Source: Engelhardtia mirabilis
GTDB taxonomy: Bacteria > Planctomycetota > UBA1135 > GCA-002686595
Assembly (NCBI GenBank): GCA_007751255.1
Contig: CP036296.1
Coordinates: forward strand, 4,154,001 to 4,218,000
Length of the DNA stretch: 64,000 bases
Reading direction: 5' to 3'
Shown here: piece after piece, positions 2,872 to 54,361 of the stretch
Layout of the letters: every line of letters starts with the position of its first letter
Position numbering within the stretch: position 1 is the first letter of the stretch
Notes under the pieces: model-generated
Seen by the model: the letters and a program-made list of their open reading frames with translations, nothing else
What the model was told of the DNA's origin: nothing
The model's database searches: none
Made by a program: the position numbers and the translations under genes

Positions 2872-4008
2872 ATGAGCGAGAAGCGCGATTACTACGAGGT
2901 GCTCGGGATCGAGCGCAACGCCGGCGCCGACGACATCAAGCGCGCCTATCGCAAGTTGGCGATGCAGTACCACCCGGATCGCAACCCCGACGATCCGGAC
3001 GCGGAACGCAAGTTCAAGGAGGCCGCGGAGGCCTACGACATCCTCGGCGACGCCCAGAAGCGCGGTCAGTACGACCAGTTCGGTCATGCGGCCTTCTCCG
3101 GCGGCGCGGCCGGCGGCCAGCGCTTCTCGAACCTCGAGGACATCTTCGACGCCTTCGGGGACATCTTCGGCGGTGGTGGCGGCGGTGGCTTCTTCGGCGA
3201 CCTCTTCGGGGGCGGCCGCAGGCGCCAGCGTGGACCGCGCCGCGGACGCGACCTGAAGATCGTGCTCGAGATGACCCTCGAGGAGATCGACAGCGGCGTC
3301 GAGCGGACCATCTCGCTCAAGCGACACGAGCACTGCGACTCCTGCAACGGCAACGGGGGCAAGGACGGCGCCGCCCCCACGACCTGTCCCACCTGCGCCG
3401 GGGCCGGGCGCGTCCAGCGCACCCAGGGCTTCTTCGCGGTGCAGACTGCATGCCCCACCTGCCAGGGGCGCGGACAGGCGATCAGCGACCCCTGCACGGT
3501 CTGCAGCGGTAGCGGGCGCAAGACGGTCGAGAGCGAGGTCGTGATCCAGGTCCCGGCGGGCATCGAGGACGGTATGCGGATCCGCGTGTCAGGCGCCGGT
3601 GACACCGGTGATCCGGGGGCGCCCCGCGGCGACCTCTACTGCATCGTGCGTGAGGCCGAGCACGCGGTCTTCCAGCGCGGCGGCGCGGATCTGATCACCG
3701 AGATCCCCTTTGGCTTCTCGCAACTGGCCCTGGGCGATCGGGTCGAGATTCCGACCCTGCGCGGCAAGGCCGACATGAACATCCCGGCCGGCACCCAGCC
3801 CGGACGGGTCTTCCGAATGCGCGGACAGGGCCTGCCGCACTTGGAAGGCTCGGGCCGCGGCGATCAATTGGTGCGGGTCTTCGTCGAGGTCCCGAAGAAG
3901 CTCACCGACCGTCAGAAGGACCTGTTGCGGGAGTTCGCGGAGATCGAGGGTGAGAGCACCGGCTCCCGCACGATCCTCGAGCGCATTACGGACTACTTCA
4001 ACGGTTGA
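2872..4008 (+). CDS. dnaJ: Molecular chaperone DnaJ
   Basis: DnaJ (Hsp40) delivers clients to DnaK and stimulates its ATPase. The 378-residue product has the full type I layout. There is a J domain at about 1-70 with HPD at 34-36, then a Gly/Phe-rich linker with a poly-Gly run at about 100-115. Four zinc repeats (CDSCNGNG, CPTCAGAG, CPTCQGRG, CTVCSGSG) span about 155-215, and the C-terminal beta domains follow. Length matches the family. The start is the ATG before SEKRDYYEVLG. grpE follows after about 100 bases; dnaK is not in the window, so the usual grpE-dnaK-dnaJ order is not kept. Confidence 0.97.
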   Translation: MSEKRDYYEVLGIERNAGADDIKRAYRKLAMQYHPDRNPDDPDAERKFKEAAEAYDILGDAQKRGQYDQFGHAAFSGGAAGGQRFSNLEDIFDAFGDIFGGGGGGGFFGDLFGGGRRRQRGPRRGRDLKIVLEMTLEEIDSGVERTISLKRHEHCDSCNGNGGKDGAAPTTCPTCAGAGRVQRTQGFFAVQTACPTCQGRGQAISDPCTVCSGSGRKTVESEVVIQVPAGIEDGMRIRVSGAGDTGDPGAPRGDLYCIVREAEHAVFQRGGADLITEIPFGFSQLALGDRVEIPTLRGKADMNIPAGTQPGRVFRMRGQGLPHLEGSGRGDQLVRVFVEVPKKLTDRQKDLLREFAEIEGESTGSRTILERITDYFNG

Positions 4009-35717: not shown

Positions 35718-38147
35718 GTGATCGCCGTGCAATCAGTCTCCCTCCCGCGTCCCCTCGCCCTCCGTCGCCTGGTCCTGACCGCCGCCGCCGCCGTCGCGGT
35801 CCAGGGCTTCGCCATCGCCCAGGGCGTCGGCGAAGCGCCGCCCGCGCGCTCGGGCAAGGACGTGTTCCGCCAACTCGAGGAGGTCCTGCCGACCCCCAAC
35901 GCCTACCGCAACGCATCGGGTGCACCGGGGCACGAGTACTGGCAGCAGAAGGTCGACTACGCCATCGAGATCAGCCTCGACGAGGACAGCCGTCGCTTCA
36001 CAGGCTCGGAGCGGATCACCTACACCAACAACTCGCCCGACGAGCTGCGCTACCTCTGGGTCCAGCTCGAGAACAACCTGTACTCGCCCGACAGCCACGG
36101 CGCCCTCGTGGAGGAGAACTCGGGGCTCGCGAAGGAGGGCTTCGGAACGATGCGCGCGATGCTGGCGCGCGACGAGTTCGAGGGCGGCATCGACGTGCTG
36201 GCCGTGCGCGACGGCGCCGGCGCGGCCCTCACGCACACGGTCGTCGACACGATGATGCGGGTGGACCTGCCCCAACCGCTGGCCTCCGGGGCCCGGACCG
36301 AGTTCGAGATCGACTGGACCTTCGTCATGAACGACTCCAGGGAGGTCTGGGCACGGGCCGCCGCCGAGTACTTCGAGGACGACGGCAACTGGATCTTCGA
36401 GGTGGCCCACTGGTTCCCGCGCCTGGCGGCCTACACCGACGTCAACGGCTGGCAACACAAGCAGTTCCTGGGCCGCGGCGAGTTCACGCTCGAGTTCGGG
36501 GACTACCAGGTCGAGATCACCGTGCCCGCCGACCACGTGGTGGCGGCCACCGGGGTGCTGCAGAACCCGGACGAGGTGCTGACGGCGCAGCAGCGCCAGC
36601 GACTGGCCGAGGCCGAGCGCTCCGACGCGCCGGTACTGGTCATCACGCCGGCCGAAGCCGACGCCAACGAGCAGGAGCGCGCGGACGGCACGGCCACCTG
36701 GAAGTTCGCCGCCGAGAACGTGCGCGACTTCGCCTGGGCCAGCTCACGCAAGTTCGCCTGGGACGCGATGGGCGTGGACATCGACGGCCGCCGCGTGCTG
36801 GCCATGTCCTACTTCCCGGGCGAGGGTGAGCCCCTGTGGAGCCGCTACTCGACCCACGCCGTGGCCCACACCCTCGAGGTCTACTCCAAGTTCGCGGTGC
36901 CCTACCCCTGGCCGGTGGCGATCAGCGTCAACGGGCCCGTGGGCGGCATGGAGTACCCGATGATCTGCTTCAACGGGCCGCGACCCGAGGAGGACGGGAC
37001 CTACTCGGCGCGCACCAAGTACGGCCTGATCTCCGTGGTCATCCACGAGGTCGGCCACAACTGGTTCCCGATGTATATCAACTCGGACGAGCGCCAGTGG
37101 ACCTGGATGGACGAGGGGCTGAACACCTTCGTCCAGTACTTGGCCGAGCAGGAGTGGGAGCCGGACTACCCCTCGCGCCGCGGCGAGCCGCGCAACATCA
37201 CCGGGTACATGTCGAGCGCCAACCAGGTGCCGATCATGACCAACTCGGAGACCCTGCTGCAGTTCGGCAACAACGCCTACGCCAAGCCGGCCACGGCCCT
37301 GAACGTGCTGCGCGAGACGGTCATGGGGCGCGAGCTGTTCGACTTCGCCTTCGGCGAGTACGCCCGGCGCTGGGCCTCCAAGCGGCCCCAGCCCGCGGAC
37401 CTGTTCCGCACCATGGAGGACGCCTCCGCGGTCGACCTGGACTGGTTCTGGCGCGGCTGGTTCTACACCACCGACCACGTCAACCTGGGGATCGTAGGCG
37501 TCGAGGAGTTCACCCTGGACCCCGGTGACCCGCAGATCGCCAAGGCGCGCGACCGCGCCGAGGACGAGGCCCGGCCCGAGACCCTGGGCGAGCAGCGCAA
37601 CGCGGCCCTGGCCAAGCGCTCGGATCGCTATCCGGAGCTGCTCGACTTCTACAACAGCTACGACGAGTTCGCCGTCACCTATCAGGACGAGCAGGCCTAC
37701 GCAGACCTGATCGAGGGCCTCGACCCCTGGGAGCGGGAGCTGATCGAGCGCGAGATGCCGTACTTCACCGCGGTCACCATCGCCAACCACGGCGGGCTGG
37801 TGATGCCGGTGATTCTCGAACTGCACCTGGAGGGTGGTCTGGTCCAGGAGGTCCGGATCCCCGCCGAGATCTGGCGCCAGAACGACCTGCGCGTGACCAA
37901 GCTGCTGATGACCGAGGCGCGCATCGAGAGCATCGTGCTCGACCCCCACGAGGAGACCGCCGACGTCGACACGTCCGACAACCACTTCCCGCAGCAGCCC
38001 GTGCGCACGCGCTTCGAGCTGTTCAAGGACAAGGACAAGCAGAACCCGATGCAGCTCGAGCGCGCGGCCGAGAAGGCCCGTGCGGAAGCGGCGGAGGGCG
38101 CTGAAGCGGTCGACGACGGCGGTGAAGGCGCGGTCGGCGGGCGGTGA
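35718..38147 (+). CDS. M1 family zinc metallopeptidase (aminopeptidase)
   Basis: The 809-residue protein has a signal peptide (RPLALRRLVLTAAAAVAVQG, cleavage after FAIAQ). It has an M1 N-terminal beta saddle and the exopeptidase motif as GGMEYPM in place of GAMEN. The zinc site is HEVGH (443-447) with the third ligand in WMDEGLNTF (Glu466), the classic HExxH-x18-E spacing. M1 enzymes remove N-terminal residues from peptides. The start is taken as GTG 35718; no ATG gives the signal peptide. The gene's stop overlaps the GTG start of the DUF6702 gene, so the two are translationally coupled. Confidence 0.9.
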   Translation: MIAVQSVSLPRPLALRRLVLTAAAAVAVQGFAIAQGVGEAPPARSGKDVFRQLEEVLPTPNAYRNASGAPGHEYWQQKVDYAIEISLDEDSRRFTGSERITYTNNSPDELRYLWVQLENNLYSPDSHGALVEENSGLAKEGFGTMRAMLARDEFEGGIDVLAVRDGAGAALTHTVVDTMMRVDLPQPLASGARTEFEIDWTFVMNDSREVWARAAAEYFEDDGNWIFEVAHWFPRLAAYTDVNGWQHKQFLGRGEFTLEFGDYQVEITVPADHVVAATGVLQNPDEVLTAQQRQRLAEAERSDAPVLVITPAEADANEQERADGTATWKFAAENVRDFAWASSRKFAWDAMGVDIDGRRVLAMSYFPGEGEPLWSRYSTHAVAHTLEVYSKFAVPYPWPVAISVNGPVGGMEYPMICFNGPRPEEDGTYSARTKYGLISVVIHEVGHNWFPMYINSDERQWTWMDEGLNTFVQYLAEQEWEPDYPSRRGEPRNITGYMSSANQVPIMTNSETLLQFGNNAYAKPATALNVLRETVMGRELFDFAFGEYARRWASKRPQPADLFRTMEDASAVDLDWFWRGWFYTTDHVNLGIVGVEEFTLDPGDPQIAKARDRAEDEARPETLGEQRNAALAKRSDRYPELLDFYNSYDEFAVTYQDEQAYADLIEGLDPWERELIEREMPYFTAVTIANHGGLVMPVILELHLEGGLVQEVRIPAEIWRQNDLRVTKLLMTEARIESIVLDPHEETADVDTSDNHFPQQPVRTRFELFKDKDKQNPMQLERAAEKARAEAAEGAEAVDDGGEGAVGGR

Positions 38148-38806
38148 GCTTCGCGGGCGCCCTGGCGCTGACGAGCCTGTGGTTGGCGGAGGCGGCGGTT
38201 TTGTGCCTGGCACCGTGCGAACGCCTACCGCGTGACGAGCGTCACCCCTGGCACGAGACCCAAGCCGAGCTGGACCTGCGCCCCGAGCGGGGACTGTTCG
38301 AGGTCGCGGTCCGCATCGATGCGCTGGAGTTGGAACAGGCCCTCAGCCGGCGGGCGGGACGCCGCCTGTCCCTGGATCGCACCGACGAGGTCGCCCCCCA
38401 GCTCGAGGCCTGGACGCGCGAATCCTTCCTGGCCCGCAGCGCCGGCGGCTCTTGGGCCACGCTGAACTGGGTCGGCTTCGAGGCCGAGGTGCGCGACGCC
38501 TGGATCTTCTTCGAGTTGATCCTGCCGCCGGGGCCCGGGCCGTTGAGCCTGTCGAACCAGATGCTGTTCGAGCGCAACGCGTTCCAGTCCAACAAGCTCT
38601 TCGTGCGAGCCGAGGACTTCGGTGCCGTCCTGGTGTGCGAGCCGGGCGCCCCGTGGGCCACGTTGAGCGCCGTCGACCTGCCCCCACCCCCGGGGCCACA
38701 GGTCGGCTGGTCCGTGCGCTTGCCTCCCCTGCCGGGCACCTTCGCCGCGCGGCTCGCGGCCGAGGGCACCGACTCGCCGGCGATCCCGGGCCCCATCGGA
38801 GGCTGA
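38144..38806 (+). CDS. DUF6702 family protein
   Basis: The 220-residue protein shows the DUF6702 pattern: it starts its conserved part at HPWHETQAELDL, has EVAVRIDALELEQALSR and ends the core with SNQMLFERNAFQSNKLF. The function of the family is unknown; members are exported. The start is GTG at 38144, in a GTGA overlap with the aminopeptidase gene. The first 25 or so residues form a signal-like hydrophobic stretch (LALTSLWLAEAAVLCLAPC), part of which (AAVLCLAPCERLP) is encoded by a dispersed repeat. If the repeat inserted here, it became part of the export signal. Confidence 0.72.
   Translation: MSFAGALALTSLWLAEAAVLCLAPCERLPRDERHPWHETQAELDLRPERGLFEVAVRIDALELEQALSRRAGRRLSLDRTDEVAPQLEAWTRESFLARSAGGSWATLNWVGFEAEVRDAWIFFELILPPGPGPLSLSNQMLFERNAFQSNKLFVRAEDFGAVLVCEPGAPWATLSAVDLPPPPGPQVGWSVRLPPLPGTFAARLAAEGTDSPAIPGPIGG
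38190..38228 (+). repeat. Dispersed repeat inside the DUF6702 5' coding end
   Basis: These 39 bases match 53421-53459, part of the right arm of the giant hairpin, with one mismatch at 38217. They include the palindromic-looking core GTGCCTGGCAC. The match starts and ends sharply and lies fully in frame in the gene. Confidence 0.9.
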
Positions 38807-52699: not shown

Positions 52700-53110
52700 T
52701 CAGCTTCGACCGTGCGCGGGCAACGATCGATCGCCCTCGTCATCCGATGCCGGCGAGCCCCCCGACCGCTGTTCGATCTGTGCTCGCAGCGACCGCGCGA
52801 AGTGCAAACCGGCGGCCTGCCACCCCACCAACGCGACGAAGATCAAGGGCAACAGGACCCCACTGATCCGCCCCACGACCACCAGCCAGTCGGGATAGTG
52901 ATCCAGATGGCTGCCCGTGAGGGTGAGGCCGAGCAAGACGAGGTTCACGCACAGGATGAGGGTCAGCAGGGCCATGCGCCGGCCCCCGCTGGCGATCACC
53001 TCGTCGATGGCCTCTGACTCGCGCCCCTCGGCGCGCAGGGCCTTGGCGCGCCAGGTGGTGCCCTGCCCGCCACAGGCCCGGGCGACGGCTTCAAAGGTCG
53101 GGTCGTCCAT
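52700..53110 (-). CDS. Small hypothetical membrane protein
   Basis: The 136-residue protein begins MDDPTFEAVARACGGQGTTW and has two transmembrane helices (MALLTLILCVNLVLLGLTL and VVVGRISGVLLPLIFVALV), with a short soluble tail. I do not recognise a family. I place the start at ATG 53110; the frame extends 55 codons upstream to 53275, but that part has no protein-like features. Confidence 0.65.
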   Translation of the reverse strand: MDDPTFEAVARACGGQGTTWRAKALRAEGRESEAIDEVIASGGRRMALLTLILCVNLVLLGLTLTGSHLDHYPDWLVVVGRISGVLLPLIFVALVGWQAAGLHFARSLRAQIEQRSGGSPASDDEGDRSLPAHGRS

Positions 53111-53326
53111 GCAGAGAGTGTGCCCGACGACCCCTGAGACCGCCACACTCGAGCCCAGCACGAGTTCCTGTCGCCCGCCAGGGGATCTGCACCCCCTCGG
53201 GAAGTTCGCGTCGGACCCCGGAGCCACGCTCACAAAGCCAGCCAAAGCTGCCGTCCGAGGGTGCTCTCGCATCAACTAGCTCTGCCCCGCCGAATCGCTC
53301 TTCGCTCGAGGACACTGTCGGCGCGC

Positions 53327-53469
53327 CCGGGAGGGCGTAGGCGTTCGTACGGTGCCAGGCACAAAACCGCCGCCTACCGCAGAGACCGCGGCCGCCGTTG
53401 GCGGCCGCGGGCTCTGCGGTAGGCGGCGGTTTTGTGCCTGGCACCGTACGAACGCCTACGCCCTCCCGG
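53327..53469. repeat. 143-bp near-perfect inverted repeat (giant hairpin)
   Basis: The left arm (53327-53384) and right arm (53412-53469) are perfect 58-bp inverted copies. Inside them, after a single A/G mismatch, 53386-53396 pairs perfectly with 53400-53410 around a GTT loop. The result is one stem of 70 positions with one mismatch. The arms contain GGTGCCAGGCAC-type sequence as seen in REP-like elements. No open transposase frame lies inside or beside it. It sits in the 504-base gap (53111-53614) upstream of modA, which otherwise holds nothing recognisable. Confidence 0.97.
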
Positions 53470-53614
53470 TTCGAGGTCGGAGCGCTGCGCCTTGCCCGTC
53501 GCTGGTAGATCACCTAGAAACCTGGCATGGGTGAGCTCGAATGCGACTGGCCGCGCGCAACCAGGATCGTCGGGCGGGGCGCCGAGCTCTCCAGCGCCTG
53601 ATCGCACCTCGTCG

Positions 53615-54361
53615 ATGAGCCTGCCCACTCCCCTCGTACTGCTGCTCGCCCTGGTTGCCGCCTCCTGCGCCCGGGGCACGGCGGCAGACCACACCACCGT
53701 CGTCTTCGCCTCGGCATCGCTGGCCGCGCCGTTCGACGAGCTGGCCCGCGCCTTCGAGCGCGCGCAACCCGGCCACGAGGTCCGACTCAACACCGCCGGC
53801 ACGCCGCAGCTCGTGCTGCAGGCTCGCGAGGGCGCACGGGTCGACGTCTTCGCCTCGGCCGATGCCCAGAGCCTCGTCAGCCTGCTCGGACCGCACGACG
53901 ACGAGATCGATCCGATCGACTTCGCCCTGAACCGCATGGCGATCGCGGTTGCTGCTGGCAATCCCCGCGGGATCAAGGGGCTTTCGGACCTCGAGCGCGA
54001 CGACCTGCTGGTGGCCCTGTGCGGTCCGGCCGTTCCCGCGGGGCGCTACGCGCGGAGCCTGCTCGAGGCCGCCGCGGTGCAGGTTCGCTCCTCCTCCGAC
54101 GAGCCCAGTGTGCGCGCACTCGTGTCCAAGGTCGCCCTGGGTGAGTTGGACGCGGGCCTGGTCTACGCCAGCGACCTGGTCGGGACCGACGCAGCGGTCG
54201 AGGCGGTGACGATCCCGACGCCACAGAACGTCGTCGCGCGCTATCCGGTGGCGATCCTGGCCCGGGGCGAGCGCGAGGGGCGCGCCCGAGCCTTCGTGGA
54301 CTTCCTGCTGTCGGAGGCGGGCGGCGCGATCCTCACGGCCCACGGCTTCGAGTTGCCGTGA
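53615..54361 (+). CDS. modA: Molybdate ABC transporter substrate-binding protein
   Basis: ModA captures molybdate (or tungstate) outside the membrane and hands it to ModB. The 248-residue product has a lipoprotein signal with VAASC (Cys18), then the family's TVVFASASLAAPFDELARAF, NTAGTPQLVLQ, DVFASAD, and a C-terminal FVDFLLSEAGGAIL. The start is ATG 53615. The stop overlaps the modB start by one base. The frame is open upstream into the giant hairpin, but only the part from 53615 looks like ModA. Confidence 0.93.
   Translation: MSLPTPLVLLLALVAASCARGTAADHTTVVFASASLAAPFDELARAFERAQPGHEVRLNTAGTPQLVLQAREGARVDVFASADAQSLVSLLGPHDDEIDPIDFALNRMAIAVAAGNPRGIKGLSDLERDDLLVALCGPAVPAGRYARSLLEAAAVQVRSSSDEPSVRALVSKVALGELDAGLVYASDLVGTDAAVEAVTIPTPQNVVARYPVAILARGEREGRARAFVDFLLSEAGGAILTAHGFELP

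Follow-up and report, generated by a model that had tools for sequence, protein, structure and literature searches.

The near-perfect hairpin that lies upstream of modA in the window, i.e., in the whole 64,000-nt stretch of DNA analysed here, is best read as a REPIN-type, non-autonomous mobile repeat, with a likely RAYT/TIRYT HUH enzyme and with a second arm that would be made by folding back on the first, a reading to which we give a probability of about 0.73. The dispersion of the repeat, its tag and the linkage of that tag to transposase genes, the symmetry of the arms within each copy, the locus-specific stem ends of most copies, and the similar inner stems of neighbouring copies of a second family, B, are directly supported by the data.

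The inverted repeat has the 70-position stem, single mismatch and GTT loop given in the original prediction: two arms of 70 nt each (53327-53396 and 53400-53469) are separated by a 3-nt loop, and the mismatch is at arm position 59. With independent bases, about 8e-29 such repeats would be expected by chance in 7 Mb. As single-stranded DNA the hairpin folds at -112 kcal/mol (z -22), which was equalled by none of 200 shuffles. A search of Rfam with 53000-54000 gave nothing at the gathering score, the top matches being microRNA-type and to the stem. The features of this locus, and of a second one in the window, are the following:

53327-53469, no strand: whole hairpin, the paired (head-to-head) form of family A (repeat and folding)
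53327-53336, plus strand: outer left stem X, locus-specific flank (extends past the shared unit)
53337-53377, plus strand: conserved 41-nt A unit, left (BLAST, core matches, pairs)
53346-53359, plus strand: left tag CGTACGGTGCCAGG (genome-wide tag matches)
53378-53396, plus strand: inner stem Y, which varies among copies (mismatch within versus between copies)
53397-53399, no strand: loop GTT (inverted-repeat alignment)
53400-53418, minus strand: inner stem Y', complementary to Y save one mismatch (inverted-repeat alignment)
53419-53459, minus strand: right A unit, inverted (BLAST, pairs)
53437-53450, minus strand: right tag CGTACGGTGCCAGG (genome-wide tag matches)
53460-53469, minus strand: outer right stem X', complementary to X (flank extension)
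38190-38228, minus strand: single A unit (half-element), 38/39 nt, inside predicted ORF 38144-38806

The flank extension of the focal copy is 13 nt if GTA is counted in. The three ORFs downstream match SBP_bac_11, BPD_transp_1, and ABC_tran plus TOBE in Pfam, and hence the assignment to modABC was right; the likely start of modA is at 53615, leaving a gap of 145 bases to the hairpin. On the other side lies a small predicted ORF on the minus strand, for which Pfam gave no match; the region is divergent by our gene calls, which come from a home-made codon-score finder. No T-run follows the stem on either side. The partial copy that had been noted at 38.19 kb was confirmed as this half-element; it lies in frame near the start of its ORF and is possibly an intragenic REP-like insertion.

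Searching the host genome (6.95 Mb, two contigs) with the focal arm gave at least 75 BLAST matches, 40 of the 103 candidates being scored, and an 18-nt A core with up to two mismatches matched 106 times against none for the reversed control. By contrast with the 103 candidates of the host, the same arm gave 0-2 in each of 60 relatives, which all belong to other genera and of which 36 belong to the same family; the A unit is nearly absent from these 36 genomes. The half-unit is thus dispersed, as had been proposed, and its many copies, some of them paired, are what the prediction had named as support for a mobile repeat. Among 67 A loci (63 stretches plus the window), 38 are head-to-head pairs, the doubled form that the prediction had postulated for the focal locus, and 29 are single units, although one of the latter (L119) has a damaged partner unit and is really a pair. 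With four further stretches added after this analysis (L232-L235), of which L234 is a full A pair, family A comprises at least 40 paired elements and about 30 single units. The pairs have the layout X-A-Y-loop-Y'-A'-X', in which the 41-nt A unit is conserved, while X and Y vary across most copies yet stay complementary. The 39 A hairpins measured have stems of 23-71 bp, 12 of them perfect, with 54 mismatches in 2248 pairs; five of the 38 pairs are short members with a span of 44-62. Two of the 67 loci lie inside predicted ORFs (the L137 pair and the single unit of the window), the L087 element overlaps an ORF by 54 nt, 12 overlap a gene end by 3-4 nt, and the remainder are intergenic. A predicted gene stops at base 4 of the A unit in 11 of the 67 elements, its stop codon being supplied by the GTAG with which A often starts; of 66 arms, 37 keep its first G, 54 the T, 50 the A and 60 the last G, and these bases are paired.

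A second family, B, was found beside a transposase gene and comprises 41 hairpins with stems of 37-83 bp, of which 28 are without mismatch (17 mismatches in 2596 pairs). Together A and B make 81 hairpins, with stems of at least 37 bp in 78. The two families have a tag in common, CGTACGGTGNC; the pattern CGTACGGTGNCNGG has 178 matches in the host genome and its reversed control none, and the portion shared by A, B and the elements of relatives is CGTACGGTG. On reading the B cores and the elements of relatives, we did not see GTAG at the corresponding place. Two B hairpins, L224 (G000:C1:6128440-6128950) and L219, have outer arms that resemble outer A (altered in L219), as if one element had inserted into or recombined with the other. 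Searches of genome_contigs with a 20-base pattern and of viral_contigs with a 17-base pattern, from which the host genome may be excluded, gave two matches and one match, respectively, all single units without a long hairpin and probably due to chance. No description of the tag or of the repeat family was found among the titles and abstract openings of the literature searched.

For a MITE/REP element the prediction had advised looking for a Y1/RAYT gene elsewhere in the genome, and one intact Y1-type (RAYT-like, HUH) gene was detected (G000:C1:4713646-4714662, 339 aa), sitting between two B hairpins of 76-77 bp and flanked by 156-nt copies, one on each side, that are 97% complementary. Its product scores 53.9 bits with the NCBI RAYT model NF047646 (cut-off 80) and 16.7 with PF01797 (cut-off 23), below both cut-offs; at looser thresholds, NF047646 matches 11 of 11 homologues (E<=0.001) and PF01797 10 of 11 (E<=0.01). 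The HUH histidines H60/H62, Y119 and N123 are present in all 30 aligned homologues, and P124 is present in the host protein, with a conservation among the 30 of less than 90%; the protein therefore carries the HUH and Y---NP motifs of RAYT/TnpAREP. A profile built from 11 members had TnpA_REP (4ER8) as its best match in PDB (E 0.0026), and its C-terminus weakly matched three PDB DnaA sequences (E 0.23-0.24); Pfam named no DnaA-like or HTH domain in this C-terminal part. For the A/B group, the likeliest enzyme is a HUH single-strand transposase of the RAYT/TIRYT type, with a tail that may be DnaA-like. The elements flanking the gene are B and not A; A is tied to the transposase only by architecture and by the tag that it has in common with B. 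Two direct copies of 300 nt, 92% alike (L143, 1925-2224 and 4265-4564), enclose the gene and its two hairpins. A transposase-like fragment elsewhere (G000:C1:6466861-6467127; L136, about 3662-3928), with 38% identity over 86 residues and a short A pair about 1.2 kb away, is perhaps the remnant of another RAYT.

Homologues of the transposase (E<=1e-5) occur in 38 of 81 genomes of the family, the host included. TACGGT, which was taken from the element itself, is concentrated around the 29 homologous genes of relatives: the flanks up to 200 nt from these genes (11,188 nt) hold 16 occurrences, and the other 97,235 nt of their loci also hold 16 (p 2e-8), a density about nine times higher near the genes. 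It is present at 11 of the 29 and absent at 18. TACGGWG, picked after viewing the enriched 7-mers in the same data, is found at 18 of 30 transposase loci; in six of them the left-hand copy is in forward and the right-hand copy in inverted orientation. Within the sequence examined, three of the 30 loci have a strong hairpin (the host's included; one lies at a stretch end). One or more tag matches occur in 58 of the 154 genomes of the order, but in most of them matches to the reversed control are about equally common. A clear excess of tag over control is seen in the host genome (178 vs 0), G037 (67 vs 3) and G078 (9 vs 0), and four further genomes (G001, G003, G029 and G034) have 3-4 tags vs 0. 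Hairpins are associated with the tag at 2/2 places in G029, 1/1 in G034, 2/3 in G078 and 10/15 in G037, where 15 of the 67 tag places were examined and, besides the 10 hairpins, four ended at a contig end and one had none. In G078, inverted tags flank the transposase at the third place, and a closely similar element forms the hairpins at the other two. In G037 the matches to the transposase are all weak (33% and 28% identity), which, with its many tags, is no simple fit to a link between tag and enzyme.

How the arms came to be alike can be judged by comparing mismatch within and between copies. In A, the unit differs by 3.8% within a copy and 11.2% between copies, and the inner stretch by 9% and 57%, respectively (33 of 38 pairs, five short pairs being dropped). 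In B, the values are 0% and 10.4% for the core (41 of 41) and 1% and 55% for the inner stem (35 of 41). Drift of whole copies predicts arms that differ within a copy at least as much as between copies; since the opposite is seen, either sequence was copied between the two arms, with every insertion or many times later, or copies with unlike arms were lost. Part of the effect may reflect the search itself, as copies were recognised by motifs or by pairing in both arms and symmetrical ones were thereby favoured. The original prediction held that such DNA must be either very recent or kept by selection; this omitted a third option, that the arms were made or kept identical by copying, which the data favour. 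The pattern suggests that one arm was remade from the other.

The stem ends also run on into the flanks. Beyond the shared unit, pairing continues for a mean of 7.1 nt in A pairs against 1.7 nt in a cross-locus control (32 of 38 pairs), and for 5.7 against 2.5 nt in singles (26 of 29), the six pairs and three singles without an exact anchor being dropped; in neither group did any of 5000 permutations reach the observed mean. The extension is at most 3 nt or absent in 7 of the 32 pairs and 10 of the 26 singles, and begins right at the unit end, with at least 5 nt, in 25 of the 32 pairs. It is not accounted for by selection acting on the element alone.

Among B copies, five of 820 pairs lie less than 5 kb apart (0.45-2.8 kb), separated either by the transposase gene or by one to three predicted genes, and these rank 1-5 in inner-stem similarity. 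It follows that the inner stem moves along with the element and often over short distances, although local duplication or conversion may also have produced this similarity. The pattern is clear for B and not for A, in which some distant copies have a common Y (similarity 0.95 over 432 kb). The neighbouring B hairpins at L203 and at L209 have a nearly equal inner stem and reverse-complement loops (AAA/TTT and GTT/AAC). Capture of a host terminator as inner stem Y was set aside for B, given the same Y in neighbouring copies. A composite transposon between neighbouring B copies is likewise unsupported: apart from the transposase, nothing transposase-like was seen on reading the first 60 residues of the intervening genes.

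Taken together, the A element consists of two inverted REP-like units around a short inner stem and probably belongs, with B and the elements of same-order relatives, to one larger group of long hairpins marked by CGTACGGTGNC. The transposase would nick the element and move it as single-stranded DNA, and the second arm would be remade by folding back on the first, perhaps through hairpin-primed synthesis, which could continue for some bases of flank, thereby creating X'. A more specific, replicative mode is conceivable but doubtful: the elements would propagate as half-elements, a DnaA-tailed HUH transposase making its nick at the tag and the folded 3' end priming the second arm with synthesis into the target. 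If this is true, each insertion leaves a near-perfect palindrome whose outermost base pairs come from the new site, and such replicative single-strand transposition explains both the identity of the arms and the complementarity of the flanks. The accessible part of PMC8266576 states that replication could be primed by the 3'-OH that cleavage by these enzymes leaves. Roughly eighty perfect or near-perfect hairpins in one genome record their own making in their symmetry, flank extension and local clustering, and the fold-back idea could be tested with a single enzyme and few oligonucleotides. That palindromes survive here through loss of SbcCD was not established. The best match to the SbcD model, at 25.4 bits (cut-off 77.65), is a Metallophos protein (L195, 460-1863; G000:C1, near 834.7 kb), which we take to resemble YhaO; the genome thus has no match over the cut-off, and this may bear on its tolerance of long palindromes.

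The main rival for the second-arm step is template switching without the transposase. The same mobile element would have entered pre-existing hairpins, e.g., terminators, and the identity of the arms would have been kept by quasipalindrome correction, an account to which we assign a real though minority chance. Short hairpins are indeed more frequent in 122 element-free intergenic regions than after shuffling (64 vs 27; arms of at least 7, spacer 3-12), the perfecting of stems and the inversion of loops by template switching are documented (PMC8794818, accessible part), and the reverse-complement loops in two neighbouring B pairs fit such a process. However, an extension beginning at the unit end would need targets that are nearly loopless, and only three hairpins with arms of at least 9 and a spacer of 0-2 occur in the 122 regions. 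Further, divergent pairs, where no terminator is expected, extend at least as far as the others: the mean, on our home-made gene calls, is 9.0 in divergent (n=6, two of the eight divergent pairs being among those dropped), 7.4 in tandem (n=14) and 5.8 in convergent settings (n=12), although these numbers are small.

It is improbable that the hairpins are a host RNA or DNA signal, such as a terminator, a processing site or a nucleoid-protein site, spread by selection rather than by mobility. A is mostly intergenic with its pairing kept, and convergent regions are in excess, holding 26 of the 67 elements as against 33 of 174 background regions of at least 60 nt (element-bearing ones included). 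Yet the remaining elements comprise 31 in tandem and 10 in divergent regions, the latter being 8 of the 38 pairs, the focal one included, and 2 of the 29 singles; and dozens of copies have the A sequence in common beyond what pairing demands, in contrast to its near absence from the 36 family members searched. Because of the divergent sites and the lack of a T-run beside the focal stem, the terminator reading was set aside, and the transcription roadblock before modA that had been suggested is unsupported by these genome-wide settings.

We consider it very unlikely that a DDE transposase moves A as an ordinary MITE by way of terminal inverted repeats: inverted-repeat ends, small size and many copies would suit it, but the flanks adjoining the element are themselves inverted complements, and in relatives the tag adjoins HUH/Y1 genes. 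An assembly artefact, about which the original prediction had been concerned, has next to no probability, because the hairpins measured on one 6.9-Mb contig, 39 of A and 41 of B, mostly differ in their inner stems, and there are similar hairpins in G029 (a single-contig genome), G034, G037 and G078, even if fold-back chimaeras can yield long perfect palindromes and a contig end lies near the tag in four G037 stretches. Overall, the original interpretation is partly supported.

The non-autonomous, fold-back repeat that we favour can be compared with several known systems, as described in the accessible parts of the papers cited. Like the REPINs of Pseudomonas and others, in which compensatory changes in the hairpins are reported (PMC3116915), A has two inverted conserved units in one hairpin, a variable complementary spacer, many extragenic copies and a RAYT-like gene in the genome. 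Unlike in REPINs, the stems here are as long as 70-83 bp, many copies having no more than one mismatch, and continue into the locus-specific flank, the tag is CGTACGGTGNC without a strict GTAG foot, and the C-terminal part of the transposase is large. With the GTAG REPs, which form head-to-head dimers (PMC3733652), A shares the frequent initial GTAG and the head-to-head arrangement, but its GTAG is only partly kept and is base-paired; A is therefore not a member of this group, whose foot is unpaired. Template-switch mutation likewise yields perfect stems, compensatory changes and inverted loops, but as a replication error in host sequence, whereas the element here is dispersed, tagged and present in many copies (PMC8794818).

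The closest enzymes are those of TIRYT (PMC3733652) and of TnpAREP subclass 2.1 (PMC6006769), which similarly have a RAYT-like gene and long flanking inverted repeats, together with a C-terminus resembling DnaA, to which the tail here may correspond; in the host genome, too, the gene lies between long inverted repeats. Around TIRYT genes, dispersed copies of the terminal inverted repeat (TIR) are described, some of them self-complementary (PMC3733652). The TIR motif GGGGWSAS is not clearly enriched in our flanks, with 4 in 11,589 nt vs 21 in 100,880 nt elsewhere at the 30 loci (0.35 vs 0.21 per kb; 4 of 30 loci). The tails of subclass 2.1 are DnaA-like or HTH, and the survey reports, in its accessible part, no REP-like sequences near these genes (PMC6006769), unlike the two amplified families with 81 hairpins in one genome found here. 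The candidate enzyme would accordingly resemble a subclass for which that survey found no REP, and we read the hairpin family as a new combination, in which REPIN-like repeats go with a RAYT of TIRYT-like type.
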